DNA of 64,000 nt from Collinsella aerofaciens (GTDB taxonomy: Bacteria > Actinomycetota > Coriobacteriia > Coriobacteriales > Coriobacteriaceae). Location of the stretch: contig NZ_JAQLFL010000001.1 of the NCBI RefSeq assembly GCF_028206995.1, positions 261,372-325,371 of the forward strand. The letters are read 5' to 3'. Positions 3,076 to 61,946 of this stretch are shown here, piece after piece; positions within the stretch are counted from its first letter, which is position 1; each line of letters starts with the position of its first letter. The position numbers and the translations under genes are program-made. The notes beneath the pieces are model-generated. The model did not search any database. It was not told where the DNA came from and saw only the letters and a program-made list of their open reading frames with translations.

Positions 3076-3114
3076 TTCAGATTATGCAGCCTGTAGTGCA
3101 TTTTGGAGGATTCG

Positions 3115-12747: not shown

Positions 12748-12769
12748 CCGCTATTAACTTTTCGAGAGT

Positions 12770-12804
12770 AAAAGCCGCCGTTCTTTAACGGCGGCTTTTC
12801 TTGT
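12770..12804. terminator. Bidirectional terminator between rfbCD and the convergent GT2 gene
   Basis: A 13-bp perfect stem (AAAAGCCGCCGTT / AACGGCGGCTTTT, loop CTTT) has T-rich ends on both strands. It lies between converging genes and can serve both. Confidence 0.9.
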
Positions 12805-12849
12805 TGATGGCTATCTGCGCAGTGGTGCCAATAGTATTTTGCGGAAGAT

Positions 12850-26277: not shown

Positions 26278-26354
26278 GCCCTATTAGCTCAGGGGATTAG
26301 AGCGTCTGCCTCCGGAGCAGAAGGCCGTTGGTTCGAATCCAACATGGGGCACCA
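26278..26354 (+). tRNA. tRNA-Arg (anticodon CCG), prophage integration site
   Basis: The acceptor GCCCTAT / ATGGGGC, anticodon loop CTCCGGA and T-loop GGTTCGAATCC are intact, with encoded CCA at 26352-26354. The prophage joins at its 3' end; the gene remains whole. Its natural terminator now appears to lie past the prophage at 61,878. Confidence 0.97.
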
Positions 26355-27749
26355 TTCCAATTTTGCTCGAACCCGCTGGATGTCCAATCTGGCGGGTTCG
26401 CCCTTTTTGTCGTAGTTCAGCGTGACCAGTATCTCGTCCTCCGAGACGACAGCCTGCCACACGAACGCCTTCAGCAGCGTCGCGTCGTCGAGCGCCGTCC
26501 CGCACTGCAGGAAGTCGGCGAAGCGCTCCGGGTCTATCCGCTCGTCCGTGATGGCCTCGAGGTCGTACCTAGCGCGCGCCTGCTGCTCCTCGAGCTCGGC
26601 TATGCGCTCGTTCACGCCCGGTGCTATCACGCCCTGCTCGATGGCGTTGAGGATGTTCCTCAGGCCCCTCTCCGCAGCCCTGAGCGAGTCCTCGGCCTGC
26701 CTGCGGCGAGCCCGCACCTCGACCGTGTCCGCGCGCTCCGCCACCATGTCGGCTATCTGCAGCGCCTCGCCGCGGTCGCCGAGCAGCCCGCGCAGCGCCG
26801 AGGCTATGGAGCCCTCGAGCTCCTCGCGCCTGATGTTGCGGACGCACGACCCCGGGCAGCTGTAGTACTCGTACTTCACGTTGTTGCGGCCCCTGCCGCT
26901 CACGCCCTGCAGGTTCCTGCCGCATTCCGAGCACAGCGCCGTCCCCGCGAGGGCGAAGTCGCCCCAGTTCTCGCTCGAGCGCTGCTTGCGGCACTTGATT
27001 CCCTGGACCTCCATGAACGTCACCTCGTCCACTATCGCCGGCATCCCGCCCTCGCGGACGATGCCTCCCCACTCGTACCTTCCCGTGTACCTGCGGTCGC
27101 GCAGCATCTGCTGCACCATCGCCTGGCCGCACGGGTTGCCCTTGCGCGTCCTGAGGCCGCGCCGCGCGAACTCGCGCGCTATCGCGTTCATGGACATGCG
27201 CTCAAGCCTCAGCGCGAAGGCCTCGCGCACCCACGCCGCCTGCGCCTCGTCGACCTCGTACTCGTCGTCCTCGTTCCTGCGGTAGCCGAAGATGCGCACG
27301 CCGTTGGTCTTGCACTTGAGGGCGTTGCCCTCCATGCCGCGCTTGGTCCTGATGGCGGTCTTCCTCGACTCGCAGGCGGCGAGCCCCTCGAGCAGCTTCT
27401 CGTAGATGATGCCCTCCGGGCTGTCGGGTATCTGCTCGAGCGCCGAGACCAGCTTGACGCCGTGCGTGGCGAGCTCTCGCTTGTATATCGGCGCGTCGTA
27501 CTCGCCGCGGCTGAAGCGGTCCATCATGTAGACGAGGACGATCTCGCTCTCGCCGGCGTTGGCTATCATCCGCTGGAACTCGGGGCGGTCGTCGGTGCGC
27601 CCCGACACGGCGCGGTCGCAGTACTCCGCCGCGACCTCGTAGCCCTCGCGCGCGCACCACTCGCGGCAGACGCGCAGCTGGTCCTCGATCGAGGCCTCGC
27701 GCTGCCTGTTGCACGAGAATCTCGCGTATATCACTGCCCTCTTTGGCAT
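26289..27749 (-). CDS. int: Large serine recombinase (prophage integrase)
   Basis: The 486-residue protein has a resolvase domain (RAVIYARFSCNRQREASIEDQ, catalytic Ser12; YMMDRFSRGEYD), a recombinase domain (~155-260), a zinc ribbon (CSECGRNLQG ... YYSCPGSC) and a coiled coil (~340-400). It catalyses site-specific integration with short att sites. The frame runs across attL: the last residues after WCP, namely MLDSNQRPSAPEADALIP, are the antisense of tRNA-Arg(CCG). In the excised circle the frame would continue into the sequence now left of attR and end with VCLDSRTEIC...RIPRAA at 61787 (about 492 residues). A tRNA target is unusual for this class. Confidence 0.95.
   Translation of the reverse strand: MPKRAVIYARFSCNRQREASIEDQLRVCREWCAREGYEVAAEYCDRAVSGRTDDRPEFQRMIANAGESEIVLVYMMDRFSRGEYDAPIYKRELATHGVKLVSALEQIPDSPEGIIYEKLLEGLAACESRKTAIRTKRGMEGNALKCKTNGVRIFGYRRNEDDEYEVDEAQAAWVREAFALRLERMSMNAIAREFARRGLRTRKGNPCGQAMVQQMLRDRRYTGRYEWGGIVREGGMPAIVDEVTFMEVQGIKCRKQRSSENWGDFALAGTALCSECGRNLQGVSGRGRNNVKYEYYSCPGSCVRNIRREELEGSIASALRGLLGDRGEALQIADMVAERADTVEVRARRRQAEDSLRAAERGLRNILNAIEQGVIAPGVNERIAELEEQQARARYDLEAITDERIDPERFADFLQCGTALDDATLLKAFVWQAVVSEDEILVTLNYDKKGEPARLDIQRVRAKLEWCPMLDSNQRPSAPEADALIP
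26346..26355. repeat. attL core
   Basis: The 10 bases GGGGCACCAT at the tRNA 3' end are repeated at 61862-61871, the other prophage boundary. Confidence 0.8.
26361..26409. terminator. Hairpin just inside the prophage left end
   Basis: A perfect 9-bp stem CGAACCCGC / GCGGGTTCG is followed by CCCTTTTT on the plus strand, so it can end tRNA-Arg(CCG) transcription in the lysogen. It lies within the 3' coding end of the integrase. Confidence 0.75.
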
Positions 27750-48196: not shown

Positions 48197-48546
48197 CGGA
48201 CTTCCGCCAGTACTACGGCATCGACCTCCCGCTCGAGGGCGGACCGGACGACCTCCGGCGCGCCGCCCTCCTGTGGGAGCAGCTGCCGAAGGAGTCGAGG
48301 TGCGCGCGCCGCATGTACCCGGAGCTCAAATGGAGCGAGGAGACGTACATGCTCTGGCGCATCGAGCATCAGCTCAGGAGCCTCGCGTGGGGGCTGAGCG
48401 ACAAGAAGCACCGGCCGCCGCAGGAGCCGCAGCCGCTCAAGACGCCCGGGCAGCTCGCGGAGCTCAAGAGGCACCAGCGCAACGCCCTCGCGAACAGGGC
48501 GGAAATCGACGAGATTCTAGGATTAGGAGGACGGGATGGCGACTAG
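47903..48546 (+). CDS. Tail assembly chaperone gpGT by -1 frameshift
   Basis: At A AAA AAC (48142-48148, read GCA AAA AAC in frame) a -1 shift continues into a frame reading KKLPGFVLELEGHRAEVVAD, YYGIDLPLEGGPDDLRRAAL, RRMYPELKWSEETYMLWRIE to 48546. The second frame has no start of its own and is coding throughout. Such gpG/gpGT pairs are nearly universal in long-tailed phages and set tail length stoichiometry. Join 47903..48148 with 48148..48546. Confidence 0.9.
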
Positions 48547-51007
48547 CGTAGGCTCGGCGTGCATCACGCTCATGCCGTCCATGAAGGGCTTCGCCGGCAG
48601 CATCTGCTCGGAGTTCGGCGATACGGGCTCCAAGGCCGGAAAGTCATTCGGCGACTCGATGACCTCCGGCGTGGACGGCGGCGTCAAGCGCTCGGGCGGG
48701 CTGCTGAGCGGGCTCGGCACCGTCGCCAGGGGCGTCGGGACCGTCGCCGCGGCTGGCATGGGCGCGCTCACCACGGCGGTGACCGCAATCGGCGGCGCTG
48801 CGGTATCCGCATACGCCGACTACGAGCAGCTGGTCGGCGGCGTCGATACGCTCTTCGGCTCCGCGTCCGGCAAACTGCAGGGATACGCCGCGGAAGCGTA
48901 CAAGACGTGCGGCATGAGCGCAAACCAATACATGACCCAGGCGACCAGCTTCGCCGCATCGCTCGTGAGCTCGTGCGGCGGCGACGTGGCGAAGGCCGCC
49001 GAGTCCGCCAACACGGCGATGGGCGACATGGCGGACAACGTCAACAAGATGGGCTCGGACATGGCCGACGTCCAGAACGCCTACCAAGGTTTTGCCAAGC
49101 AAAACTATACGATGCTGGACAACCTGAAGCTGGGCTACGGCGGCACGAAGTCCGAGATGGAGCGACTCATCGTGGACGCCAACAAGCTGCGCGCGGCGCA
49201 GGGCAAGACCGCCGACCTCACCATCGACAGCTACGCCGACGTGGTCGAGGCTATCCACACCGTGCAGTCCGAGATGGGCATCACCGGCACGACCTCCAAG
49301 GAGGCCGCGACGACCATCTCCGGCTCCATCGGCATGGCCAAGGCATCGTGGGAGAACTTCCTCACCGGTCTGGGCCGAGACGACGTGGACTTCTCGCAGC
49401 TCACCGAGCAGCTGCTCACGTCCGTCGGCGCGGTCGCCAAGAACATCGCGCCGCGCGTCGCGCAGATCGGGCAGGGCATCATCAAGGCGCTCCCCGCGGC
49501 GCTCTCCGGCATCGCGTCGGTGCTCACGCCCATCGTATCCGAGGCGCTCGCCACGGCGTGGAACATCGCCGTCGGGGCGCTCGCCGGCATCGGTATCAAG
49601 CTGCCGAAGCTGGACTCCTCGCAGATCTGCTCGGCGCTTCAGGCAATCCTGGGCGTGGCCACGTCCGTCGGCAACGGCATCAAGGCGGCAATCGGGTTCA
49701 TCGCTCCGCTCATCGCGCCAATCGGCACGGCGCTGCTCAACATCGCGCAGGCCGTGCTGCCGGTGCTCTCCACCGGCATACAGGTGGTGCTCGGCATCGT
49801 GCAGGCGCTGTCGCCGGTCATCGGCTTCCTGGTCAACGTCATCGCGGATGTGATGACGACCGTCTCGCAGCTCGTCGCCATCGCCATGCCCGCCGTGCAG
49901 TCCGTGCTGTCCGCAGTGCTGGCGGCGATGCCGCTCATCCAGGGCGCCATCCAGGTGGCGATGGGCATCATCTCCGCCGTCTGGAACGCGGTCTGGCCGG
50001 TCATCTCGGCCGTGCTTACCGGGGTGATGGGCGCAATCTCCACTGCCGTCCAGGTCGCGATGGCCGTGGTGCAGGCAGTCATCTCCACGGTCACCGCCGC
50101 GATAAGCGGAGACTGGGATACGGTCTGGAACACCATCAAGTCGGTAGCCGAGCTCGTCTGGTCTCAGATTGAGTTCGCCGTGCGGGCGGCCATCGGGGTC
50201 GTCGAGTCCGTGATAACGTCCGCGCTCGACGGAATCAGCTCGATTTGGTCAAGCGTGTGGGACACCGTCCGCGACTTCGCCGAGGTCGTCTGGGGACGCA
50301 TCAAGTTCGCCGTCAACTCGGCGATAAATCAGGTCAGCGGCGTGATCAGCTCCGTGCTCAACAGCATCAGCTCCACGTGGTCGAGCATGTGGGGGAGCAT
50401 CAAGAGCGCCTGCTCGTCCATCTGGGAGGGCATCAAGAGCGCGGCTTCCAACGGAATCAACTCCGTCTACAGGACCGTCACGAGCATCAAGGGCAAGATC
50501 ACCGGGTTCTTCTCGGGTGCGAGAAACTGGCTCTTCAACTCCGGCAAGTCGATACTCAACGGCCTGAAGGACGGCATTATGTCCGCAATCGGCTCGGTGA
50601 CCTCGGCGGTCTCCGGCGCAGTCTCCAGAATCCGCTCCTTCTTCCCGTTCTCGCCGGCAAAGGTCGGCCCCTTCTCCGGGCACGGCTACACGACCTTCTC
50701 GGGCAAGGCCCTCATGCAGGGCTGGGCGCAGGGCATCGGCTCCGGCACCGGCACCGTGGTCTCCGCCATCAGCGGCGCCATGGACACCGCGCAGGGGATG
50801 CTCTCGACGGGCCTGACCGTCGCGCCGTCCGCGGTCTACACGCCTGCGCGTCCCGAGGAGGATTCAGACGACGCCCTCGCCGGCATCCTGTCCGTCCTCG
50901 AGCAGATCCGGGACAAGGACGGAAACATGTACATCGACTCGGAGCGCGTCTCCTCCGCCATCGCGATGCGAGGCAGGCACACGCTCGCCGCAAGGGGGTT
51001 CGCATGA
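48536..51007 (+). CDS. Tape measure protein
   Basis: The 823-residue protein has an N-terminal head (SAYADYEQLVGGVDTLFGSA, KAAESANTAMGDMADNVNKM), several hydrophobic stretches (VAKNIAPRVAQIGQGIIKAL; ~345-515) and a C-terminal FFPFSPAKVGPFSGHGYTTF motif typical of these proteins. It sets tail length and may help DNA entry. Overlaps the gpGT end. Confidence 0.92.
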   Translation: MATSVGSACITLMPSMKGFAGSICSEFGDTGSKAGKSFGDSMTSGVDGGVKRSGGLLSGLGTVARGVGTVAAAGMGALTTAVTAIGGAAVSAYADYEQLVGGVDTLFGSASGKLQGYAAEAYKTCGMSANQYMTQATSFAASLVSSCGGDVAKAAESANTAMGDMADNVNKMGSDMADVQNAYQGFAKQNYTMLDNLKLGYGGTKSEMERLIVDANKLRAAQGKTADLTIDSYADVVEAIHTVQSEMGITGTTSKEAATTISGSIGMAKASWENFLTGLGRDDVDFSQLTEQLLTSVGAVAKNIAPRVAQIGQGIIKALPAALSGIASVLTPIVSEALATAWNIAVGALAGIGIKLPKLDSSQICSALQAILGVATSVGNGIKAAIGFIAPLIAPIGTALLNIAQAVLPVLSTGIQVVLGIVQALSPVIGFLVNVIADVMTTVSQLVAIAMPAVQSVLSAVLAAMPLIQGAIQVAMGIISAVWNAVWPVISAVLTGVMGAISTAVQVAMAVVQAVISTVTAAISGDWDTVWNTIKSVAELVWSQIEFAVRAAIGVVESVITSALDGISSIWSSVWDTVRDFAEVVWGRIKFAVNSAINQVSGVISSVLNSISSTWSSMWGSIKSACSSIWEGIKSAASNGINSVYRTVTSIKGKITGFFSGARNWLFNSGKSILNGLKDGIMSAIGSVTSAVSGAVSRIRSFFPFSPAKVGPFSGHGYTTFSGKALMQGWAQGIGSGTGTVVSAISGAMDTAQGMLSTGLTVAPSAVYTPARPEEDSDDALAGILSVLEQIRDKDGNMYIDSERVSSAIAMRGRHTLAARGFA

Positions 51008-51702
51008 TATTCGGCGGAATCGACCTCACGCCGTACCTGCTGGTGACCAAGGTCACGAGACCGGTTGTCCCCAAGGTGCGGCTCGATGAGACCGAGGTCC
51101 CCGGCATGGACGGCACGCACGTCCGTGCCACGGGCCTCGAGCCCGTCGAGATAGCGGTCGACTGCAACATCGTCGGCGGCTCCCTCGACGAGGTCGCCGA
51201 GGCAAGGGCCGTGCTCGCCTCGGCGCTGTCCGGCGGCGAGAAGGCCCTCGTGCTCGACGACGCCCCCGAGCGCTACATGCTCGCGCGCTACAGGGGAGGG
51301 GCGGAGCAGGGGCGCAACGCGCACATGCCGAATCTCACGCTCGGGTTCTACTGTGCAGACCCCGCCGCCTACGGGCAGCGGCGCTCCGAGCAGGTGTCGG
51401 CATCCCAGCGCGCCGTCGCCGCCGGTGGCAACTACAGGGCCTACCCTACGGTCACGTGCAGGCCCCCGGCAGGCTCGAGCTGGACAATCACCAACGTCTC
51501 GACCGGGCGGTTCGTCCGCGTCGAGGCGTCGTTCACGGGCGCACAGACCGTCGTGCTGGACATGCGCGCCGAGCGCTGCACCGTCAACGGCGCGGACTGG
51601 CCCGTGACCGTCGCGAGCGACTTCTTCTCGCTCGACGGCGTGCAGCAGATCAAGACGAGCGGCGGCACCGCGACGCTCGAATGGGAGGAGAGGTGGCTCT
51701 AG
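51004..51702 (+). CDS. Distal tail protein (Dit)
   Basis: The 232-residue protein (FGGIDLTPYLLVTKVTRPVV, ETEVPGMDGTHVRATGLEPV, LTLGFYCADPAAYG) matches siphovirus distal tail proteins that form the hub linking tube and baseplate. Overlaps the tape measure stop. Confidence 0.88.
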   Translation: MIFGGIDLTPYLLVTKVTRPVVPKVRLDETEVPGMDGTHVRATGLEPVEIAVDCNIVGGSLDEVAEARAVLASALSGGEKALVLDDAPERYMLARYRGGAEQGRNAHMPNLTLGFYCADPAAYGQRRSEQVSASQRAVAAGGNYRAYPTVTCRPPAGSSWTITNVSTGRFVRVEASFTGAQTVVLDMRAERCTVNGADWPVTVASDFFSLDGVQQIKTSGGTATLEWEERWL

Positions 51703-54700
51703 GTGCGAATTGACGTATACACGTGGCAGGACGCCTACGTATCGACAATCGGCCCCGAGGAGCTGCTCGCCCTCACCCATACCGACGAGCTCAACGGCGA
51801 GGACAGCGTGGACATCGCCACGACCTTCGCGCTCAAGCAGGGCTACCGCCTCGTGTGGGCCGACCGCCTCGGCAAGGTCCACGAGCACGTCTGCCAAGAC
51901 CCCAAGGGCCTCCACGCCGGAGGCGATACGGTCTACACGGACACGGCGATCAACTCAATCTGCGAGACGTACGGCGACTATATCGAGGACAAGCGCCCCT
52001 ACGGCTACGGCTTCTTGCAGGCGCTGAATGTCTGCCTTGGGCCGACCCGCTGGACCGCCGGAACGGTCGACCAGACCGGCACCGTCGACAAGGGCCTGAC
52101 CTTCTACCACACCTCGTCGCGCGAGGCTCTCCAGTCAATCTTGAAATGCGGCGGCGAGCTTGAGACTGAAATCACCGTATCCGGCGGTAGGGTGGCCTCT
52201 CGCAGGGTGGGCATCCGCTCGCACCGAGGCGCGAAGGGCGGTCACCGCCGGTTCACCTACACCAAGGACCTGGCATCCGTCTCCCGCACCGAGCATTACG
52301 GGGCGATAACGGCCTGCTACGGCTACGGCAAGGGTATCGAGACGGATACCGGCGGATACGGCCGCAAGCTGACCTTCGGCGACATTAACAACGGCAAGAA
52401 CTACGTGGAGGACGCGACCGCGCTCAAGCTGTACGGGCGACCTGACGGCAGGGGCGGGCACGCCCACGTGTTCGGGCAATATGAAAATCCAAATTGCGAG
52501 GACGCGGCGACGCTGCTCGCCGAGACCCGCGCGTACTTCGGCTCCCGCAAAGAGCCGGGAGTGACTTACGAGGCCGACGCCGTCGACCTCGTGCAGTTCG
52601 GACGCGAGTGGGAGGGCGTCGCCGTGGGCGACGACGTCCAGATCGTCGATACGGCATTCAGCCCGGCGCTGCGCTGCGAGGGCCGCGTGACCAAGCTCGT
52701 CACCGATGAGCTCGGCGGCACCGTCCGCGTGACGCTCGGCAACGTGACCGAGACAATTGCGGACATGTTGCTGGCGCAGCAGCAGAAAGTGTCCAGCCTG
52801 TCCAAGCGCTCGTCCAGCTGGGACGTGGCGGCATCCACGCCGCCGTCGTACCTCCAGCAGGTCATGGACGCGATGAACGCCCAGTTCAACATGTCCGGCA
52901 GCAGCTACACCTTCACCAGCTTCGAGCAGGGGACAATCTACGCATCCGTGCCCATGGACGCAAACGGCCGCTCGACCACGGGCAAGGGCAGCGCCATGCA
53001 GCTGTGCTCGCAGGGCTTCCGCATCGCCTCCGGCTGCAAGGCCGACGGCTCGTGGGACTGGCGCACCTTCGGCACCGGCGCGGGCTTCACCGCCGACCTA
53101 ATCACGGTCGGCACGCTCATGGGCGACCTGATCAAGGCCGGAACCATCCAAGACAGGAGCGGCAAGAACTACTGGAACCTCGACGAGAGCGAGGTCCATC
53201 TAGGCCCCGGCGCCAAGCTCGACGGCAAGGACATCGCCGTCGCCGATGCCGTGATAGCGTCGGTGGACGTCGAGTACGCCCAGGGAACGTCGCGCGTCAC
53301 CGAGCCGCAGGGCGGATGGCAGACCACGGCGCCGCAATGGGTGTCGGGCAAGTACATCTGGACGCGCACCAAGACCACCATGCAGTCCGGAGACATCGAG
53401 TACAGCGAGCCCGTGTGCATCAGTGGCAGGGACGGCACTGATGGCGCGAAGGGCGACAAGGGCTCCACCGGCACCGGCGTGAAAGGCATCGTGGAGCAGT
53501 ACTACCTGTCCATGAGCGCCACCGCGCAGTCCGGAGGCAGCTGGTCTGAGGCACAGCCCGCGTGGGCGAAGGGCAAGTACATCTGGACGAGGAGCAAGAT
53601 CACGTGGACGGACGGCTCGGTCACGTACACCGCGCCGTGCCTCGCCAAGGCCATCAACGGATCAAACCAGATGGCCGGCAGTGCCATCGTCTCGCGCGTG
53701 AAGCTGTACGCGAGGAACCAGTCGGACAGCGTGCCGCCAATTAATGCGCAGAACCCAGAGCTGGGATGGTCCGAGGACCTCCCGCAATGGTCGAACGGAT
53801 ACTTCGTCTGGTCGATGGAGCGCGTCACCTACGGCGACGGCAGCGTCACCCACACGGCGCCGGTGCTGGAAGCCGCGTACAACAAGGCCTATCAGAGCGC
53901 GCACGACCTGACGGGCTCGCTCAACGGCCTCGACACGACGGTGCAGGACCTCGCCAAAGACGGTGTGGTGACCGAGGCGGAGAGGGCGGCGGTCAAGAAG
54001 GCCAAGCAGGACGTGGACAAAGAGCGCGAGGAGCTCACGAGCCAGTACAACGCGCTGAAGTCGAACAAGGCCCTCAGCGCCCAGTTCCTCTCGTCCGTCC
54101 TCGGCCCCCGCTACACCAAGGCCTTCGGCACGACCGATGAGGGCGGCACGTACGGCTCCTATGCCGACAAGGTCGACAAGGTGATCATATGCAAGACCGC
54201 CGAGGAGCTCAAGGCTGCCATGCACGAGTACGACGCCGCATTCGGAGCCTACTCGAGCGCGGTCAAGGACTACGCCGATGCCGCGACCGGGGCGCGCCAC
54301 GCCATCGAGCAGAAGAACGCGTCGGACTACGCCGACGGCATCCTGAGCGCCTACGACGAGCAGATGGACCAGAAGGCCATCTTCGACCGCCTGACCAACA
54401 ACGGTGCCGACCAGGGGCTCTACATGAGCAACAACAGGGTCTACGTCAACGCGACATACATCGCAACCGGGACTCTCGCGGACGCAAAGGGGCGCAACTC
54501 GTGGAACCTCAAGGAAGGCGTGCTGACGACCAACTACATGACGGCGAAGAACATCACGGCGACCGGAAGCTTCACCGGTGGAAACCGCAGCAGCAGGTAC
54601 GCCATGGAACTCGACTCGAGCGGGAAGCTGGCTGGGTTCAAGGACGGCACGCAGTACGGATACATCGAATGCTCCTCAACCTCACATGACATCGACAATC

Positions 54701-54966
54701 CGTCGATTATCTACCACGGACTGCAGCTGCAGGGACAGGGCGTCGTGCGAGTCTCGACCCCGAGGCTCAGCGTGAGCGGCAGCGCCGACACGAGCGTCAC
54801 GACGTGGTCAGGCCTGACGACCAAGGTCGGAGCGGCATACCACCCGCTTTACACGGAGAACGGCAAGAAATATTTCAACGACCAGTCCCAGACATCGTCG
54901 GTGCTCGAGTTCAGGAACGGCCTGCTGATCGGCGTGTCGACCATGCCGTCCGGGTGGAGCGGATAA
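51703..54966 (+). CDS. Tail-associated protein (Tal-like) with repeated WTR domains
   Basis: The 1087-residue protein starts at GTG 51703, one base after the Dit stop. Residues ~1-370 are the Tal hub domain (TWQDAYVSTIGPEELLALTH, VAVGDDVQIVDTAFSPALRC). Three modules with GKYIWTRTKTT, GKYIWTRSKIT and GYFVWSMERVT (~530-720) follow, one with a short collagen-like GRDGTDGAKGDKG. A long coiled coil (~735-900) ends in a beta-rich tip. It links hub to receptor-binding parts. Confidence 0.88.
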   Translation: MRIDVYTWQDAYVSTIGPEELLALTHTDELNGEDSVDIATTFALKQGYRLVWADRLGKVHEHVCQDPKGLHAGGDTVYTDTAINSICETYGDYIEDKRPYGYGFLQALNVCLGPTRWTAGTVDQTGTVDKGLTFYHTSSREALQSILKCGGELETEITVSGGRVASRRVGIRSHRGAKGGHRRFTYTKDLASVSRTEHYGAITACYGYGKGIETDTGGYGRKLTFGDINNGKNYVEDATALKLYGRPDGRGGHAHVFGQYENPNCEDAATLLAETRAYFGSRKEPGVTYEADAVDLVQFGREWEGVAVGDDVQIVDTAFSPALRCEGRVTKLVTDELGGTVRVTLGNVTETIADMLLAQQQKVSSLSKRSSSWDVAASTPPSYLQQVMDAMNAQFNMSGSSYTFTSFEQGTIYASVPMDANGRSTTGKGSAMQLCSQGFRIASGCKADGSWDWRTFGTGAGFTADLITVGTLMGDLIKAGTIQDRSGKNYWNLDESEVHLGPGAKLDGKDIAVADAVIASVDVEYAQGTSRVTEPQGGWQTTAPQWVSGKYIWTRTKTTMQSGDIEYSEPVCISGRDGTDGAKGDKGSTGTGVKGIVEQYYLSMSATAQSGGSWSEAQPAWAKGKYIWTRSKITWTDGSVTYTAPCLAKAINGSNQMAGSAIVSRVKLYARNQSDSVPPINAQNPELGWSEDLPQWSNGYFVWSMERVTYGDGSVTHTAPVLEAAYNKAYQSAHDLTGSLNGLDTTVQDLAKDGVVTEAERAAVKKAKQDVDKEREELTSQYNALKSNKALSAQFLSSVLGPRYTKAFGTTDEGGTYGSYADKVDKVIICKTAEELKAAMHEYDAAFGAYSSAVKDYADAATGARHAIEQKNASDYADGILSAYDEQMDQKAIFDRLTNNGADQGLYMSNNRVYVNATYIATGTLADAKGRNSWNLKEGVLTTNYMTAKNITATGSFTGGNRSSRYAMELDSSGKLAGFKDGTQYGYIECSSTSHDIDNPSIIYHGLQLQGQGVVRVSTPRLSVSGSADTSVTTWSGLTTKVGAAYHPLYTENGKKYFNDQSQTSSVLEFRNGLLIGVSTMPSGWSG

Positions 54967-54987
54967 GAGATGAAAGGACAAGAAGGA

Positions 54988-55386
54988 ATGGAAGCAAGCA
55001 AGAAAATCGTCGTGGGCTACGCGGTCCACGACATCATCGGCAATAACGAGCAGTGCCTGACGGAGTACGACCCGGACGTGCTCCAGCGCGCCGAGGACGC
55101 CGGACTCATATTTGTCGCCCAGTACGACGACGGCTCGCGCGAGGTCGTCAAGGCCGCGGACGTCCGCAAGCCAGACCCCACGGTCAACGGCATCCCGCTG
55201 GCGACCGCCGGGTACGTCGACAAGCGCACGGCTGCCACCGTGGCGTGCTTCGACGCGCTCTCGGCCATCGTCGACCCGCAGCCGGCCACGGCCGAGGAGA
55301 CGGGGGAGGGGGCCGAGGCCGTCGACCCGGTCGAGGCCTTCAAGGCCGCGCTCGCCGCGCTCAGGGCGCTGGAGGCCAAGGAATGA
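54988..55386 (+). CDS. Tail-region protein of unknown function
   Basis: The 132-residue protein (KKIVVGYAVHDIIGNNEQCL, VAQYDDGSREVVKAADVRKP) has an alanine-rich acidic tail. ATG 54988 has AAGGA upstream and is preferred to 54970. It overlaps the BppU-like start. Position suggests a baseplate part. Confidence 0.6.
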   Translation: MEASKKIVVGYAVHDIIGNNEQCLTEYDPDVLQRAEDAGLIFVAQYDDGSREVVKAADVRKPDPTVNGIPLATAGYVDKRTAATVACFDALSAIVDPQPATAEETGEGAEAVDPVEAFKAALAALRALEAKE

Positions 55387-56120
55387 TCAACCACGCCATA
55401 TCACTCGACATGCGTAAGCGCCCGGGCACCATCCCGCAGCGCGTCACCGTGCGCCGGGGCGAGACCCAGACCCAGCGGGTGACCGCGACACTCACCACGG
55501 ACGGCGCCGCCTACACGCCGACCTACCAGTCAGCGCGCCTGTGCGTGCTCCATGCCGACGGCACGTGGGCTCGCTGCGCCGCCACCGTCGGCACGGTATC
55601 GGTGAGCGCCACGCTGGCGCCGGAGGCCGTCAACGGCACCGGCAGGTGCAGGCTGGCATACTTCGAGTTCTACAGCGCCAACGGGGCCTCCGAGACGACC
55701 GAGGACTTCGCGCTCGTCATCCTGGAAAATGTGGACGGGACAACAGGGCCTGCCGTCAGCTACGACCAGGAGCTCGACGAGCTCTATAGGAAGTGGAGCA
55801 CTGAGCTATCTCGGCTCGGTCAATCCGCGTTCGATGCGGCATCCGCCGCTAGCGGTGCGGCGTCGAGGGCCGATGCGGCGGCAAGCGCGGCATTGCAGAT
55901 CGCGAACGCGGCGGCGCAGGGCGCCGCCGGCGAGTCCGACATCGCCGAGCTGCGCCGCCAGAACGGCCAGCTCGCGACGATGCTCGCCGACGCGACAGAC
56001 AAGTTCATCTACATGGACGGCACGGTCTACTGCCCTGCCGGCAAGGCGTCGGTATCCGGGGACACGGTGACGTTCGGCAGCACGTGCTCGGTATCGGGCA
56101 GCACGGTAACCCTTTCCTAA
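55383..56120 (+). CDS. Baseplate upper protein (BppU-like)
   Basis: The 245-residue protein has an N-terminal BppU-like domain (RKRPGTIPQRVTVRRGETQT, SARLCVLHADGTWA, FYSANGASETTEDFALVILE), an alanine-rich coiled coil (~150-195) and a small beta tip. BppU proteins anchor receptor-binding proteins to the baseplate, so it may carry the DGR-diversified protein encoded next. Confidence 0.8.
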   Translation: MINHAISLDMRKRPGTIPQRVTVRRGETQTQRVTATLTTDGAAYTPTYQSARLCVLHADGTWARCAATVGTVSVSATLAPEAVNGTGRCRLAYFEFYSANGASETTEDFALVILENVDGTTGPAVSYDQELDELYRKWSTELSRLGQSAFDAASAASGAASRADAAASAALQIANAAAQGAAGESDIAELRRQNGQLATMLADATDKFIYMDGTVYCPAGKASVSGDTVTFGSTCSVSGSTVTLS

Positions 56121-56129
56121 GGAGGATAA

Positions 56130-57038
56130 ATGGCAAATGCAAAGACGCTGGTCGTAGGCGGCCAGCCGCTCAACGTCATCGACGATACCGCGCGCAGCAA
56201 CGCGCAGACGGCGCTCAACAACGCCGAGTACAACCGCCAGGGCCAAATCGGCAAGTACGGCGGGCAGAACATCGCCACCATCCTGGCTGGAGAGATCGGC
56301 AACGGCAGCGTGTACGACGCGCTGCACAAGCGAGCCGCCAACGGCAACTTCGCGGGCCTGCGCGTGGGAGACTACATCGACGTGCCGCTGGTAAGCGCGT
56401 CGGGCGTGGCGGCCCAGCAGTCCGTGCGCTTCCTCCTGGCGCACTTCGACCCGTACTACTGCTGCGGCGACAGCTCCAAAGGCCACCACATCGCGTTCGT
56501 GGCCTCCGCGCCCATCGCCGTGGCCAAGACCGTGACCGGCGTTGTCAACGACAGCTTCCTGATGTGGAACACGACCAACACGAACCAGGGCACCGCCGAC
56601 CGGAAATGCCCCTACCCCAACAGCAACCTCAAGGCGTGGGAGACGGCCTTCGAGGCCTGCCTGCCCGAGGGGCTGACCAAGTACCTGCTGACCCAGCGCG
56701 TCCTGCTGGAGGAGCGTTACAGCGCAAGCGGCGCGCTCAACGACTCCAACTCGTGGAGCTGGCAGGATATCGGCAAGGTGTTCTCGCTGTCCGAGATGGA
56801 GGTGTACGGCTGCCCAGTGTGGGGCACCAAGGGCTACAGCGTCGGCTTCGACTGCCAGTGGGACCTGTTCCGCGACACCGCTCACCGAGTCAACGGAAAT
56901 CGGTACCGTTGGTGGCTGCGTTCCGTTGCGTCGGGCTCCGCGTCCTACGTGTGCTATGTCGCCAGCGGCGGCACTGCCAACTACACCTCGGCGGCGAACG
57001 TCTGGGTTCGCCCCCGCCCCGGCTTCCTCGTCGGCTAG
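56130..57038 (+). CDS. DGR target: tail receptor-binding protein with C-type lectin-like variable end
   Basis: The 302-residue protein follows GGAGG. The first ~255 residues are a constant part (GQNIATILAGEIGNGSVYDA, GDYIDVPLV, FSLSEMEVYGCPVWG); the last ~46 (from residue 257) are the variable region, ending RPRPGFLVG. RWWLRSVASGS and VRPRPGF are typical of the CLec fold of DGR proteins, which displays variable residues on a stable scaffold. Nine codons cover the TR adenines that differ. As the gene next to BppU it likely decides host receptor binding. Receptor unknown. Confidence 0.88.
   Translation: MANAKTLVVGGQPLNVIDDTARSNAQTALNNAEYNRQGQIGKYGGQNIATILAGEIGNGSVYDALHKRAANGNFAGLRVGDYIDVPLVSASGVAAQQSVRFLLAHFDPYYCCGDSSKGHHIAFVASAPIAVAKTVTGVVNDSFLMWNTTNTNQGTADRKCPYPNSNLKAWETAFEACLPEGLTKYLLTQRVLLEERYSASGALNDSNSWSWQDIGKVFSLSEMEVYGCPVWGTKGYSVGFDCQWDLFRDTAHRVNGNRYRWWLRSVASGSASYVCYVASGGTANYTSAANVWVRPRPGFLVG
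56899..57027 (+). repeat. DGR variable repeat (VR)
   Basis: 129 bp in the 3' end of the target gene. Compared with TR it has G at six, C at five and T at one of the template's adenines. Changes turn Asn codons into Arg, Tyr, Ala, Ser, Gly, Thr and Thr, Thr into Ala, plus one silent Gly. The last ~25 bases (GC-rich, from GTCTGGGTTCGCC) are identical except for one A position and probably act as the homing-initiation site (IMH). Confidence 0.97.
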
Positions 57039-57066
57039 CCAGCCGAGTGCTCTATACTCTGCTTCT

Positions 57067-57091
57067 AGGCGACCGCCTTGCGCGGTCGCCT
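57067..57091. other. Hairpin downstream of VR
   Basis: A perfect 10-bp stem AGGCGACCGC / GCGGTCGCCT with loop CTTGC sits 39 bases after VR. In the BPP-1 phage a DNA hairpin shortly after the VR promotes homing, so this probably does the same. Confidence 0.75.
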
Positions 57092-57094
57092 CCT

Positions 57095-57117
57095 GCCCGC
57101 GAAGCGGGCCGTTTTTT
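57095..57117 (+). terminator. Terminator after the DGR target gene
   Basis: Stem GCCCGC / GCGGGC, loop GAA, then six T (57112-57117). It separates tail transcription from the avd-RT part. Confidence 0.8.
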
Positions 57118-57142
57118 CCGCCAGTTTCCCCAGGAGGTGCAC

Positions 57143-57613
57143 GTGAGCGGCGTCTACCAGCGCAACCGCGAGGTGTCCGAGTACAAGTTCTTCACACAGG
57201 CCATCGCCATCCGCGTTGAGGTTAATAAGCTGATGGCGTCCTCCTCAGTAGTGCCCAAGGCCTACAGGCTGCTGAACGCGGTGCCGACCGTGGAGACGGC
57301 GCGCGGCATCGTGTACAACGTCAACCGCGCCGACTGTTTCTACCCCAACAGCTCGTTCAACGCGCTGGAGTGGAAACGCTACCTGACGCTGGCCATAGCG
57401 GACTGCGAGCAGCTTATGCTGGACATGCAGTGCCTCATGGATATCGGCCTGCCCGTGAACGCCAACCGCTTCGAGGGGCTGGCGGCCATGGTCGAGGAGG
57501 AGATCAGGCTGCTGAAGGGCGCGCGCAAGAACGTGCGCGTCACCGGCAAGAAGTCCACCGAGGAGCGCATAGCCGAGGCCGAGGCCGAGCTAGAGCGCCT
57601 GCGTTCGCTATAA
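57143..57613 (+). CDS. avd: DGR accessory variability determinant (Avd-like)
   Basis: The 156-residue protein starts at GTG 57143 with CAGGAGG upstream. It is all-helical (FFTQAIAIRVEVNKLMASSS, KRYLTLAIADCEQLMLDMQC, RFEGLAAMVEEEIRLLKGAR), basic, and lies between VR and TR. Avd proteins form a barrel of helical bundles that binds the RT and template RNA. The end (ERIAEAEAELERLRSL) is coiled coil. Assignment is by position and fold type. Confidence 0.85.
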   Translation: MSGVYQRNREVSEYKFFTQAIAIRVEVNKLMASSSVVPKAYRLLNAVPTVETARGIVYNVNRADCFYPNSSFNALEWKRYLTLAIADCEQLMLDMQCLMDIGLPVNANRFEGLAAMVEEEIRLLKGARKNVRVTGKKSTEERIAEAEAELERLRSL

Positions 57614-57977
57614 TGGACGGCGGTCGCGCCTTGTTTATCGGTACAATTGGTGGCTGCGTTCCGTTGCGTCGGGCTCCGCGTCCAACGTGTGCTATGTCAA
57701 CAACAACGGCAATGCCAACTACAACTCGGCGACGAACGTCTGGGTTCGCCCCCGCCCCGGATTCCCTTATTGCCAGACCGAGTAGGCCCCAGGGCCGAAA
57801 GCAGAGCGCGAAGAGGAAGGAAGGCGCGACCGTCGGGCATGCGCCCGTAAATACGCACCCCGCGAGGGTGGCCGGACGCTGCTTGCATGGCGCGGCGCTC
57901 CGTGGCTTCGCCGCGTTTCATGGCCATACCTCAAGCGGCTGCCAGAGCCACATTGCAAGCCGCGCGGGGTGCCTCCT
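57614..57977 (+). ncRNA. DGR template RNA region with TR-RT spacer
   Basis: A 364-base stretch without genes. It holds TR (57637-57765) and a ~210-base spacer that in other DGRs forms the structured RNA needed to prime cDNA synthesis. GCACCCCGCG (57855-57864) pairs with CGCGGGGTGC (57963-57972), the latter covering the RT ribosome site. Boundaries are estimates. Confidence 0.6.
57637..57765 (+). repeat. DGR template repeat (TR)
   Basis: 129 bp that would encode the VR with Asn at most variable places. It has 24 adenines, 12 of which differ in the VR; no other base differs. AAC and AAT codons are over-represented, which lets adenine randomisation reach many amino acids without making stops. 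Confidence 0.97.
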
Positions 57978-59213
57978 GTGAACTCCGAGCAAAGGCGGGC
58001 GGCGCGCCGCAAGCGCCGCGAGGAGAAGCGCGCGCAGGCCAAGGCCGAGCGCGTCAAGGCGTGCACGCTTGATACCGTGGCCGACCTCAACAGCCTGTGC
58101 AAGGCATCGAAGCAGGCCGCGCGCGGCGTGATGTGGAAGGCATCCACGCAGCGATACATGAGAAGCTACCTGCGCAACGCCGTCCTGTCCCGCCGCGACC
58201 TTTTGGAGGGGCGCGACATATGCCGGGGCTTCATACGGTTCGACCTGTGGGAGCGCGGAAAGCTGCGCCATATCAGTGCCGTGCACTTCCCCGAGCGCGT
58301 GGTACAGAAGTCCCTGGCACAAAACGCGCTCGTGCCCGCGATCGTGCCCACCCTCATAGCCGCCAACTCCGCGAACATAAAGGGGCGCGGCACCGACTAC
58401 GCCCTGAAGCTGCTCAAGCGCCACCTGGCCGACCACTGGAGGCGGCGCGGCCGCGAGGGCTACATCCTCCTGGGCGACTTCTCCGACTACTTCGCGCGCA
58501 TAGCGCACCAACCCGTCAAAGACCAGGTGGCCTCCGCGCTGCTAGATCCGCGCGTGGTCGCCTTGGAGCACCGCCTGATAGACGCGCAGGGCGATGTGGG
58601 CCTGGGGCTGGGCAGCGAGCCGAACCAGATATGCGCCGTGGCCCACCCCAACCGCATCGACCACTTTGTGACCGAGATGCTGCGCCCCGAGGCCTACGGT
58701 CGATATATGGACGACTTCTACCTGATACACGAGTCCAAGGACTACTTGCAGGTGTGCCTGCTGCTGATAGAGGGCAAATGCGCCGAGCTGGGCATCGAGC
58801 TGAACCAGCGCAAGACGCGCGTGGTGAAGCTCACGCGCGGGTTCACGTGGCTGAAGAAGCGCATCTTCTACACGGAGACGGGCCGCATAGTCGTGAAGCC
58901 GTGCCGAGACTCCATAACGCGGGAGCGCCGCAAGCTCAAGAAGATGGCCCGCATGGTCGCCGATGGCATCATGACCCCCGAGCAGGTGGAGCAGAGCTAC
59001 CAGAGCTGGCGCGGAGGCATGAAGCGGCTAGACGCGCACCGCAGCGTGCGGGCCATGGACGCGCTGTACCGCAGCCTGTTCGGAAATCTCGCGCAGGGGG
59101 GGGGTGCTCAATGCAGGCCAAACAGAGGGACGATTCAAGCGGAAGCAAGCCCTCGCAATAGCGGAGAACCCGCAACTCAAAGCAGCGGCCTAAGCGAAGC
59201 GGCTGCGAAATAA
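57978..59213 (+). CDS. DGR reverse transcriptase
   Basis: The 411-residue RT starts at GTG 57978 (GGGG 8 bases upstream) or GTG 57969. It carries RGVMWKASTQRYMRSYLRNA, GDFSDYFARI (motif with Asp), GLGLGSEPNQICAVAHPNRI, the catalytic GRYMDDFYLI at ~243-246 (YMDD) and FTWLKKRIFYTETGRIV. LGSEPNQ occupies the place of the usual DGR [IVL]GxxxSQ motif. It makes error-prone cDNA of the TR with adenine changes, which replaces the VR. A G9 run at 59096-59104 lies near its C-terminus; one more G would give a shorter end. Confidence 0.94.
   Translation: MNSEQRRAARRKRREEKRAQAKAERVKACTLDTVADLNSLCKASKQAARGVMWKASTQRYMRSYLRNAVLSRRDLLEGRDICRGFIRFDLWERGKLRHISAVHFPERVVQKSLAQNALVPAIVPTLIAANSANIKGRGTDYALKLLKRHLADHWRRRGREGYILLGDFSDYFARIAHQPVKDQVASALLDPRVVALEHRLIDAQGDVGLGLGSEPNQICAVAHPNRIDHFVTEMLRPEAYGRYMDDFYLIHESKDYLQVCLLLIEGKCAELGIELNQRKTRVVKLTRGFTWLKKRIFYTETGRIVVKPCRDSITRERRKLKKMARMVADGIMTPEQVEQSYQSWRGGMKRLDAHRSVRAMDALYRSLFGNLAQGGGAQCRPNRGTIQAEASPRNSGEPATQSSGLSEAAAK
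59096..59104. repeat. G9 homopolymer near the RT 3' end
   Basis: Nine consecutive G. The tail after it (36 residues) is low in conserved features; a 10-G version would end at 59160 instead of 59213. Confidence 0.9.
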
Positions 59214-59222
59214 CAGAAGCAT

Positions 59223-59252
59223 CGAAGGCGTGCTGCGGCGCGCCTTCTTCCT
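59223..59252 (+). terminator. Hairpin after the reverse transcriptase
   Basis: GAAGGCG / CGCCTTC arms with a 10-base interior (TGCTGCGGCG), followed by TTCCTTT; a likely weak terminator. Confidence 0.5.
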
Positions 59253-59331
59253 TTGCGCCCATCAAAGCGGCTCGGCAATCTCACGGCGCTAATACGATGG
59301 CGGCACATTCCCCGACAAGAAAGGAGTCCGC

Positions 59332-59658
59332 ATGGACACTGAGGAAGACACGCCGCGCCCCAACGAGCTTCAAGATGGCACCATGGCCGAGGTCAACGCC
59401 CTGCGCGATCTGCTGTCGCAGATCGGCGACCCCGACGCGGCGTACGACGCGGGCGTTATCGACGATGACGAGTACGCTGAGCGGAAGGCGCGAAAGCTCG
59501 CCTACACCGCGGCGCTCGCCGCCTACGACAGAGGCGAGACGCCCGACGTACCGGCGCTGCTCGGCCAGATGCGCGAGCAGGCGTCGAATCCGACGCAGAC
59601 CGAGCAGAACACGGCGAACATCGACTACCTGCTCATGACGGTCGGAGGTGACCAGTAA
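59332..59658 (+). CDS. Phage tail/lysis-region protein
   Basis: The 108-residue acidic protein (MAEVNALRDLLSQIGDPDAA, YDAGVIDDDEYAERKARKLA) follows AAGGAG. It precedes an XkdX-like gene, an order common near the tail fibre-lysis border. Function unknown. Confidence 0.65.
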   Translation: MDTEEDTPRPNELQDGTMAEVNALRDLLSQIGDPDAAYDAGVIDDDEYAERKARKLAYTAALAAYDRGETPDVPALLGQMREQASNPTQTEQNTANIDYLLMTVGGDQ

Positions 59659-59825
59659 TGCCGACGAAGAAGACCGACGGGCATTCCAAGCACTTCGCGC
59701 TCGTCAAGAAGTACTACGACCGATCTCTTTGGACAAAGGCGCGAGTACATAAGGCCGTCGAGTGCAAGTGGATCACCGCCGACGAGTACAAGGAGATCAC
59801 CGGCGAGGAGTACGCGGCCGAATAG
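59658..59825 (+). CDS. XkdX family protein
   Basis: The 55-residue protein (HFALVKKYYDRSLWTKARVH, WITADEYKEITGEEYA) has the XkdX pattern: a Y/W-containing helix and the ending ITADEYKEITGE. XkdX proteins occur at the end of tail operons; role unclear. It overlaps the preceding stop. Confidence 0.8.
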   Translation: MPTKKTDGHSKHFALVKKYYDRSLWTKARVHKAVECKWITADEYKEITGEEYAAE

Positions 59826-59845
59826 GCGGAAGGAGGGCGCTCGGG

Positions 59846-60259
59846 ATGGAAGTGCTCAAACTTTTTGCGCCTTACGGACCGGGATGGCTCGGTGGCGTCC
59901 TTCTCGGCCTCATCGCGTTCTACTTCGGCCGCCAATTCCTCGAGGAGTACAAGCGGCAGAACGAGCGCAAGGCCGGCATCGACATGAAGCGCGAGGAGCG
60001 GAAGCAGGCCGAGGTAGACGAGCGCGCGCAGCGGGACCGCGAGCGCTCGCAGATGGAGGGCCGCATCGCCGCGCAGATGGAGCGAAGCAACAGCCTCATG
60101 GAGGCCATGAAGACCCTCATGGAGTCGGTCGTGGCATCCAACGAGGTCCTACACAACGACCTTGCGCACAGCCAGGCGCGCAGCCAGGGAATGGCGGAGA
60201 AGGTCGACCACATCTGCGACCGCGTCGACCTGATCTACAGCAAGGAATCCGACAGATAG
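59846..60259 (+). CDS. Membrane-anchored coiled-coil protein of the lysis cassette
   Basis: The 137-residue protein has one N-terminal membrane segment (GWLGGVLLGLIAFYFG) and a long charged coiled coil. AAGGAGG precedes ATG 59846. It may be a holin partner or spanin-like protein. Confidence 0.65.
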   Translation: MEVLKLFAPYGPGWLGGVLLGLIAFYFGRQFLEEYKRQNERKAGIDMKREERKQAEVDERAQRDRERSQMEGRIAAQMERSNSLMEAMKTLMESVVASNEVLHNDLAHSQARSQGMAEKVDHICDRVDLIYSKESDR

Positions 60260-60270
60260 GAGCAAATCGA

Positions 60271-60576
60271 ATGAATGAGATCCAGGCGGGCCTCACGGTA
60301 TGCACGGTGCTGGTCGTGCCGTACATCGTGCAGGCCATCAAGACGAAGGCGATGACGGGCAATGTCGCCCGCTGGACGGCCATCGCCGTCTCGGCAGGAT
60401 GCGGCGCCCTCACGGCCATGTCGGGCGGCGTCCCGACCGAACCCTCGGCATGGGTTACGTCCATCTTCGCCGCCGTCGGCGGCGTGCAGGTGGCCTATGC
60501 GGCCTTCAAATCTGTCGGCATCACGGACAAATGGCTGGACGCCCTGCTGGCGCTCGGCGACATCAAGGAGGACTAA
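60271..60576 (+). CDS. Holin
   Basis: The 101-residue protein has hydrophobic segments (AGLTVCTVLVVPYIVQAI, WTAIAVSAGCGALTAMSGG, WVTSIFAAVGGVQVAYAAF) and a charged C-terminus DIKED, as in small phage holins. It lies directly upstream of the amidase and would let it reach the wall. Confidence 0.8.
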   Translation: MNEIQAGLTVCTVLVVPYIVQAIKTKAMTGNVARWTAIAVSAGCGALTAMSGGVPTEPSAWVTSIFAAVGGVQVAYAAFKSVGITDKWLDALLALGDIKED

Positions 60577-60577
60577 C

Positions 60578-61642
60578 ATGGCAGACTTCGCGAACGTCCA
60601 ACCGGACGAGTACAAGCTTCTGGGGCGCAACTTCTCCGCAGGCCGCCCGTTCGGCATCAAGGGCGTGACCATCCACCACATGGCCGGCGACCTCAACGCC
60701 GGCCAGTGCAACGGCATCTGGGGTGCCAACGGCTGCTCGGCGCACTACTCGGTCGACCGCAACGGCTACATCGTGCAGCACGTCAACGACACCGACCGCG
60801 CCTACGCCTGCGGCGATGGAATCGGCAGCGGGCGCGGCAACGACACGACCATCTCCATCGAGCACGCGAACAGCGGCAGCAACCCGTGGACGGTCCACGA
60901 GAAGGCAATCGAGAGCGGCGCGCACCTTGTCGCGGCCCTGTGCCTGTACTACGGCCTCGGTCGCCCCGAGTGGTGCAAGAACGTGTTCCCGCACCGCTAT
61001 TGGAGCGCCACGGCTTGCCCCGGCGAGCTTGCGGGCTCCCAGCGCGACCATTACATGCAGCGCGCCCAGGCGTGGTACGACGCGATGAAGGGCGGCAAGG
61101 CACCCGCCCCCTCCACCGCCGCCAAGCCTGCCGCGGCAAAGCCCGCCCAGGCGGCATCCGGCGGCTTCTCAAAGGCATCTGGCAAGCGCATCCCCGTCCA
61201 CTACTCCCTCCACCTCAAGGGCGGCGGCTGGCTGGACGAGGTGACCGACTTCGGCGCCGGGGACAACGGCTTCGCGGGCTACCCGTGCCGACAGCACGAC
61301 CTCCTTTGCGCACGCGTCGACCGCGGCACGCTCAAGTATCAGGTTCACACCATTGAGGACGGCTGGCTCGGCTATGTGACCAAGGGCGACCGCAACGACA
61401 CCGTGAACGGCTGCGCCGGAATCGCCGGCCACACCATCGACGGTGTGCGCATGTACTACGTGACCCCGGGCGGCGAGGAGTACAAGCAGGCGTGGTACCG
61501 CTCGCAGACCACCGTGCGCCCCGGATGGCTCGATACCGTGTGCGACGACGGCTCCACTTACGGCGGCGATGACTACGCCGGTTTCTACGGCGAGCCGCTC
61601 GACCGACTCCAGGTCTGCGTCACCGACGGCAACCCGTACTAG
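60578..61642 (+). CDS. Endolysin, N-acetylmuramoyl-L-alanine amidase
   Basis: The 354-residue protein has an amidase_2/PGRP domain (~1-170): [10 protein letters not shown] with a zinc His, [39 protein letters not shown] with the second His and Cys ligand. After an Ala/Pro linker, residues ~205-354 form a wall-binding domain ([40 protein letters not shown]). It cleaves the amide bond of peptidoglycan at lysis. Confidence 0.93.
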
Positions 61643-61643
61643 C

Positions 61644-61733
61644 ATGATCGCGTTGGCATTCGTGCTCGGCGCGCTCTTCGGCGGCACCGTGGCGACAATC
61701 GGCCTGTGCCTTGTGAGCATCAACAGGCGCTAG
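61644..61733 (+). CDS. 29-residue membrane peptide (DUF3789-like)
   Basis: One membrane segment [20 protein letters not shown] and basic end SINRR. Tiny proteins of this shape follow lysin genes in several prophages. No clear ribosome site. Confidence 0.45.
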
Positions 61734-61738
61734 CCGCA

Positions 61739-61769
61739 GCCCGCTCGGGTTATCCCGGGCGGGTTTTTT
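61739..61769 (+). terminator. Terminator at the end of the lysis operon
   Basis: Stem CCCGCTCGGG / CCCGGGCGGG (one wobble) followed by TTTTTT. Confidence 0.88.
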
Positions 61770-61786
61770 CTCGAGAAAAGGTGTCG

Positions 61787-61861
61787 CTACGCCGCCCGTG
61801 GTATCCTGAGCAGCACGACGGTCCCAACGGCGCAGATCTCGGTTCTAGAATCTAGGCAGAC
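61787..61861 (-). other. Detached 3' coding end of the integrase (attP half)
   Basis: On the minus strand, directly after the repeat GGGGCACCAT (61862-61871), a 24-codon stretch runs to TAG at 61787. Joined across attP it continues the integrase frame after WCP. In the lysogen it is cut off. Confidence 0.75.
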
Positions 61862-61871
61862 GGGGCACCAT
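61862..61871. repeat. attR core
   Basis: GGGGCACCAT, identical to 26346-26355 at the 3' end of tRNA-Arg(CCG). Confidence 0.8.
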
Positions 61872-61877
61872 CGAACG

Positions 61878-61920
61878 TAAGACCGTCCGAACCTCGCATG
61901 GTCCGGGCGGTTTTTCTTAT
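61878..61920 (+). terminator. Original terminator of tRNA-Arg(CCG), displaced by the prophage
   Basis: ACCGTCCGAACC / GGTCCGGGCGGT (two wobbles) followed by TTTTTCTTAT. It lies just past attR with no gene before it, as expected if it once followed the tRNA. Confidence 0.75.
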
Positions 61921-61946
61921 ACCGACGCGACGTGATGGGACGTGGT

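Follow-up and report, generated by a model that had tools for sequence, protein, structure and literature searches.

The diversity-generating retroelement (DGR) of Bordetella phage BPP-1 has the gene order mtd-avd-TR-brt, in which the target gene is followed by avd, the template repeat (TR) and the reverse transcriptase (RT) gene, with a spacer RNA between TR and brt. The same order, target-avd-TR-RT, was found in a 64,000-nucleotide stretch of Collinsella aerofaciens DNA (RefSeq assembly GCF_028206995.1, contig NZ_JAQLFL010000001.1, positions 261,372 to 325,371 of the forward strand), which as a whole is referred to below as the window and in whose numbering all features are given. There is little doubt that the window holds a complete DGR in a Collinsella-like prophage, one that is likely to make adenine-mutagenised complementary DNA (cDNA) from its TR and with it to overwrite the variable repeat (VR) of a predicted receptor-binding gene. 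As in BPP-1, the differences between VR and TR are adenine-specific, an all-G/C tract of 14 nt and a hairpin accompany the end of VR (PMC3240598), the accessory protein has an Avd-like fold and the RT is nearest in sequence to that of a DGR ribonucleoprotein structure (8ub7). The locus departs from BPP-1 in motif 4 of the RT (LGSEPNQ versus IGSLTSQ), in the loop of the hairpin (CTTGC versus GRNA), in having a DUF6273 target, in its actinomycete host and in its spacer, which is the catalogued RNA family RT-2.

The general kind of element is already well known, and DUF6273 targets have been published before for DGRs of gut phages, namely the tentaclins (PMC10743442), where DUF6273 is likened to the C-type lectin fold, and the DGRs of Faecalibacterium prophages (PMC11792537), where the phages show adenine-specific variation at the population level. 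As in those phages, the VR of the window lies inside the DUF6273 domain of its target, but unlike those systems the target is a protein of 302 amino acids (aa) in which no other Pfam domain was found, and its gene stands beside a BppU-N-like gene. A metagenome survey describes DGRs as broadly active and recognizes three clades, mostly of viruses, whose predicted hosts are gut Firmicutes, Bacteroidetes or Proteobacteria (PMC8144416). Collinsella is unnamed in the main texts of PMC10743442 and PMC11792537, as are Collinsella and Actinobacteria in that of PMC8144416.

The VR (56899..57027, + strand) and TR (57637..57765, + strand) form an ungapped 129-bp direct repeat with 12 differences, all 12 of which fall at adenines of TR, which has 24; the reverse case, an adenine in VR facing another base in TR, does not occur among them, and no third copy of TR was found within the 64-kb window. 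The original prediction, made from the sequence alone, had described this pair, and its coordinates, length, 12 adenine-only differences and 24 TR adenines were all recovered. The chance that it gave for such a pattern, (24/129)^12 or about 1 in a billion, computes to 1.7e-9, and the hypergeometric chance that 12 randomly placed differences all fall at TR adenines is 1.0e-10. The partners that it named are also as described, with the DUF6273 target at 56130-57038, the Avd-like gene at 57143-57613 and the RT with YMDD at 57978-59213, to which the present analysis adds the hairpin at 57067-57091, the RT-2 RNA at 57768-57992 and the all-G/C tract at 57009-57022. The VR falls within target codons 257-299 at the 3' end of the 302-aa open reading frame (ORF) and ends 8 nt upstream of the stop codon. 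Most of the mutated codons are AAC or AAT, and the residue changes from TR to VR are N260R, N273Y, N278A, N279S, N280G, N282T, N286T and T289A, the difference at 57023 being silent.

Position 57023 stands apart from the other differences. In all 13 pairs (window plus 12 relatives) TR has A here and VR has C, however the remainder of VR reads, and a TR adenine at this place would give a TGA stop in the target frame in 6 of the 13 TRs. With the same letters in every pair, this position was rejected as a mutagenesis difference, and is therefore best read as a fixed difference between the initiation of mutagenic homing (IMH) sequence of VR and its TR counterpart, IMH*. It is the next base after the all-G/C tract of 14 nt (CGCCCCCGCCCCGG; 57009..57022, + strand), which is IMH-like by sequence and lies at the 3' end of VR, so that the homing boundary is placed at or upstream of 57023. 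The 12 predicted differences do all lie at TR adenines, but one of them is best not read as a trace of mutagenesis, and the best count for the window is 11 mutated adenines of the 23 taken as mutable, at 8 codons.

The 13 pairs (window, L001-L008, L074, L166, L169 and L174) were located by similarity to the window TR at non-adenine positions. Omitted were L035, which has no TR, L076, whose pair figures equal those of L006, and L075, in which no pair was found; loci L009-L073 and L077-L153 lie outside the count, and a tally of 111 pairs was not used as evidence because those pairs had been pre-selected for adenine bias. Across the 13 pairs, VR differs at 164 of 321 TR adenines, a figure in which the fixed site at 57023 accounts for 13, compared with 6 of 1356 other TR bases, and the adenines are replaced by G in 76 cases, C in 46 and T in 42. 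The original prediction had named VR changes as common at other bases as at adenines as the result that would count against it, and these figures are far from that. Window and L001 have TRs that are identical at non-adenine sites, yet 17 of the 23 adenines that they share, and 1 of 105 non-adenine sites, are different between the two VRs. Where TRs differ between loci (36 non-adenine columns), 2234 comparisons could be made; the VR agrees with its own TR in 2225 of them and with the other TR in 7, and such tracking is the expected trace of repeated copying from TR to VR.

The same signature is seen in the population of target proteins. The target gene (56130..57038, + strand), with VR at its 3' end, encodes a predicted receptor-binding or baseplate-tip protein with DUF6273 (PF19789) at residues 157-295 (E 7e-8), for which no match was found in PHROG or NCBIfam. 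It has 816 homologs at E <= 0.001, and the population analyses rest on the best 120 of these; 103 of the 120, together with the window protein, entered the entropy analysis (104 proteins), the 17 of other lengths being excluded. The nine AAY codons of TR coincide exactly with the nine columns of highest entropy among the 302 (2.7-3.6 bits), a set with a chance of 2e-17, and mean column entropy over residues 1-256 is 0.30 bits. The predicted structure of the target is too weak a guide to the C-type lectin-like fold that had originally been proposed for it (mean predicted local distance difference test score 66.5, about 30 in VR), with no Foldseek match at E <= 0.001. Recent diversification, as originally proposed, is supported both by this protein population and by the scrambled VRs that relatives carry on the same TR, and the DGR is likely to go on altering the part of the phage tip that is predicted to bind the receptor.

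A minority of the homologs depart from the target frame. Sixteen of the best 120 (including P0014, P0043 and P0097) run out of frame within VR or at its end, and 15 of the 16 then enter the avd frame. By cluster size these amount to 26 sequences, 10 of them members of cluster P0097, against thousands in in-frame clusters, so that a real, programmed fusion of Avd and target was rejected as less likely than slippage or an error of sequencing or assembly. A published discussion of template slippage concerns AAC repeats and shifts by multiples of three (PMC12875486).

On the + strand the cassette runs from the target with its VR through a hairpin, a terminator-like hairpin with T6, the Avd-like gene, TR and the RT-2 RNA to the RT. 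The first hairpin or cruciform (57067..57091, no strand assigned) has a 10-bp stem and the loop CTTGC, lies 39 nt past the end of VR and folds as DNA at -13.9 kcal/mol (z -4.0); the second, GCCCGC-GAA-GCGGGC followed by T6 (57095..57117, + strand), is terminator-like by its sequence and folding. In a search limited to the loops CTTGC or CTCGC, a stem with CTTGC (CTCGC in L166) was found 33-45 nt past VR in 14 of 14 sequences, from the window and 13 relatives, with one mismatch in the stem of L003. Of the 9 stem pairs compared over the 7 distinct sequences, 7 show compensatory change, with both sides altered; the share of cells that pair is 98.4%, compared with 76% for shuffled sequences and no more than 57% for slid ones. 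When the loop was left free, CTTGC was found in five of the loci selected through their RNA as described below (L207, L209, L210, L212 and the minus-strand DGR of L213). L206, L208 and L211, as well as more distant loci, have other loops, and the same search in L010 gave no stem of 6 bp or more. The T-run after the hairpin is absent in L006 and L008, which argues that the post-VR hairpin is more than a terminator. In BPP-1 the stem of the corresponding hairpin matters by its structure and the loop by its sequence, and phage elements have GRNA loops at distances of 4-34 bp (PMC3240598). Both an IMH/IMH* difference and a post-VR hairpin, as found in DGRs, are thus present here with a loop that is not GRNA, and the logic of BPP-1 holds in the window with a different loop.

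The Avd-like gene (accessory variability determinant; 57143..57613, + strand) starts with GTG, is full length and encodes 156 aa with an Avd-like predicted fold, that is, a small helical-bundle protein whose gene adjoins TR. The RT gene (57978..59213, + strand; 411 aa) has its best sequence match in the PDB in chain A of 8ub7 (E 1e-12), an entry titled as a DGR ribonucleoprotein, and matches the profiles RVT_1 (E 1.5e-9) and phrog_1423, reverse transcriptase (E 9.4e-63), while no NCBIfam model exceeded its cut-off. Its start is best placed at the GTG at 57978, where L002, L003 and others have ATG; a GTG at 57969 falls inside the closing stem of the RT-2 RNA. YMDD is intact, at residue 246 of the 414-residue query, and the frame has no internal stops, so that the sequence gives no sign of the inactive RT that the original prediction had also named as evidence against itself.

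Motif 4 of DGR RTs has the form [ILV]GxxxSQ, with which LGSEPNQ of the window agrees in L, G and Q, having N in place of S. LGSEPNQ is present in 17 of 160 RT rows, including all displayed rows with at least 52% identity, and LGNQINQ in 14 more. The VR/TR differences of relatives with LGSEPNQ are still nearly adenine-only, and the change from S to N therefore does not abolish adenine selectivity. The second residue of LRHISA is R in every RT row displayed, and we take it to be the match of R74 of BPP-1, which is said to affect adenine fidelity.

The spacer between TR and RT is occupied by RT-2 (Rfam RF03077; 57768..57992, + strand), found as a full-length match that spans model positions 1-222 of 222 with 134.7 bits against a cut-off of 40, begins 2 nt past TR and extends into the RT start. 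When 13 sequences are aligned, 14 of the 53 predicted pairs show compensatory change. RT-2 was found in 10 of 22 DGR loci scanned, and of 150 loci whose sequence was long enough, 27 have its core string upstream of the RT, so that it marks one part of the DGRs. A further selection by DGR locus gave 17 genomes or records, 11 of them already among the 22, and in 7 of the 17 RT-2 exceeded the cut-off. RF03077 is included in the Rfam 15 table of structure updates (PMC11701678), and what the window adds to the catalogued RNA is a defined place, as the spacer between DGR template and RT.

When the RNA model alone was run on 396 genomes of the phylum of G001 (C. aerofaciens), it gave 9 matches in 7 genomes, and it gave 0 in 14 control genomes. 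All nine matches lie 0-13 nt past a TR and are followed by an RT, their VR being 0.64-0.76 kb upstream, and 123 of the 124 VR differences at these loci are at TR adenines. Avd was found by sequence at eight of the nine and not at L211. Four of the nine are shared with the 13-pair set (two in G001, one in G019 and one in G384, whose target is that of L074) and five are new. Since every one of these RNA-selected loci adjoins a TR with adenine-specific VR differences, RT-2 is likely to be the template-RNA handle of the DGR. In 398 genomes from the phylum to which L010 (a Lachnospiraceae record) belongs, no match exceeded the cut-off and 2 reached E <= 0.001.

Some RT-2 loci deserve mention in their own right. 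In L213 (contig 6 of G001) two different DGRs of a single C. aerofaciens genome face each other, with RTs at 5804-6955 (+) and 12523-13545 (-) whose ends are ~5.6 kb apart, each with its own TR/VR pair and its own RT-2. The target of the RT-2 DGR of L211 (contig 15 of G299, 2425-3558) starts with a zinc-ribbon-like CPKCG/CGKCG and looks cellular rather than phage-borne, and 26 of its 26 VR differences are at adenines. The contig of L107 (G445:6224-6390) has a 33.5-bit match, under the cut-off, directly upstream of the RT of a DGR whose VR is downstream of the RT, a hint from sequence that the spacers of other DGRs may be distant kin of RT-2. A weak match of 37.3 bits was also seen in G717, a genome of another phylum.

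We regard it as probable that RT-2 is the DGR template-RNA spacer, a large conserved fold right behind TR that would both hold and prime the mutagenic RT in one DGR lineage, found in Coriobacteriia prophages and on other viral contigs. Its closing stem also covers the bases just before the RT start codon; folding may therefore limit translation of the RT, in which case copying of the RNA and translation may exclude each other. The same stem, together with the end of RT-2 at the RT start and a family name that says only RT, could be taken to mean that RT-2 is a cis-regulatory leader of the RT gene and lies outside the template RNA. That is unlikely, as the distance of 0-13 nt from TR is kept in 9 of 9 RNA-selected loci, the 222 model positions are more than a simple leader needs, and the spacer RNA of BPP-1 occupies the same place. 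The link between RT-2 and DGRs is possibly new, since no paper tying RT-2 or RF03077 to DGRs was found by title or the start of the abstract, within a partial coverage of the literature that excludes the presumed original description of RT-2.

Elements of this group can decay, as is seen in L035, from a C. aerofaciens record. L035 is 96% identical to the window over 51281-57307 and 94% over 58834-63997 and lacks the about 1.5 kb between (window ~57307-58834), a deletion at an 8-bp shared sequence (L035:6011-6018) that removes TR and RT-2 together with the 3' portion of avd and the 5' portion of the RT and leaves the target ORF intact. Against the TRs of L003 and L166, 13 of 13 differences in its VR are at adenines and all non-adenine positions agree, so that this VR was diversified before TR was lost; against the window TR it also has 11 non-adenine differences, as expected if the lost TR was of the L003 type. 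It could be supposed that the window prophage too diversified its VR in the past and now carries an element that no longer works, and the W of NALEWKRY in its Avd is an R in L001 and L005. This seems quite improbable when the RT frame is intact with YMDD, the Avd-like gene is full length, the RNA and DNA elements are all present, TR and VR of the window show no non-adenine difference, and the VRs of window and L001 have diverged so widely at adenines on TRs that otherwise agree. Ordinary gene duplication with selection for surface variation, without reverse transcription, can be dismissed, for although diversifying selection would be expected at a predicted receptor-binding tip such as the one that holds VR, the differences fall almost only at the adenines of one copy, the adjoining non-adenine bases are identical and change together with those of the cognate TR, the pattern recurs at 9 of 9 RT-2-selected loci, and this adenine specificity is decisive.

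For a working DGR in the window, a course of events can be proposed by analogy with BPP-1. TR and the RT-2 spacer would be transcribed together, RT-2 would anchor the RNA to RT and Avd and start cDNA synthesis, and TR adenines would be misread during copying. The cDNA would then enter VR at its (G/C)14 tract, on the upstream side of the fixed base at 57023 and guided by the hairpin, giving rise to phages with altered tip proteins, with TR remaining unchanged as the master copy.

The genes around the cassette are those of a phage. The gene before the target (55383..56120, + strand) has a BppU-N-like (upper baseplate) domain (PF10651, E 1.2e-5), and further upstream are a prophage tail endopeptidase or tail-tip protein (51703..54966, + strand; PF06605, E 1.2e-20) and a tail length tape measure protein (48536..51007, + strand; phrog_58, E 1.2e-99). 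Terminase, head protease, capsid, tail tube and endolysin genes belong to the same element, as does a large serine integrase (26289..27749, - strand; phrog_95, E 1.5e-93; PF00239/PF07508), the end of whose ORF overlaps a tRNA-Arg (26278..26354). The host is taken to be C. aerofaciens-like because L035 matches the window at 94-96%, and the phage genes and this match together support, at the level of sequence, the complete DGR in a prophage of a gut Collinsella that had been predicted. The start of the window carries a 515-bp direct repeat (1-515 and 535-1049, offset 534, one difference); the ends of the prophage (att sites) were not located, and no further long direct repeat was found in the window. 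ARAGORN called a tRNA-Pyl with anticodon cta at 12714-12802, which is possibly false.

The DGR of the window is confirmed as a textbook case with unusually good data on natural variation: a clean, well-populated element from a common human gut actinomycete, whose variation can be read against a known template and for which L035, a natural deletion relative, is a ready frozen control. The N for S in motif 4, with adenine selectivity kept, amounts to a natural test of the RT residues behind that selectivity. The DGR also probably provides the catalogued RNA family RT-2 with a function. If this role is true, RT-2 would become a searchable marker for the RT-2 lineage of DGRs, and would provide many natural sequences with which to learn how a template RNA drives adenine-specific copying.
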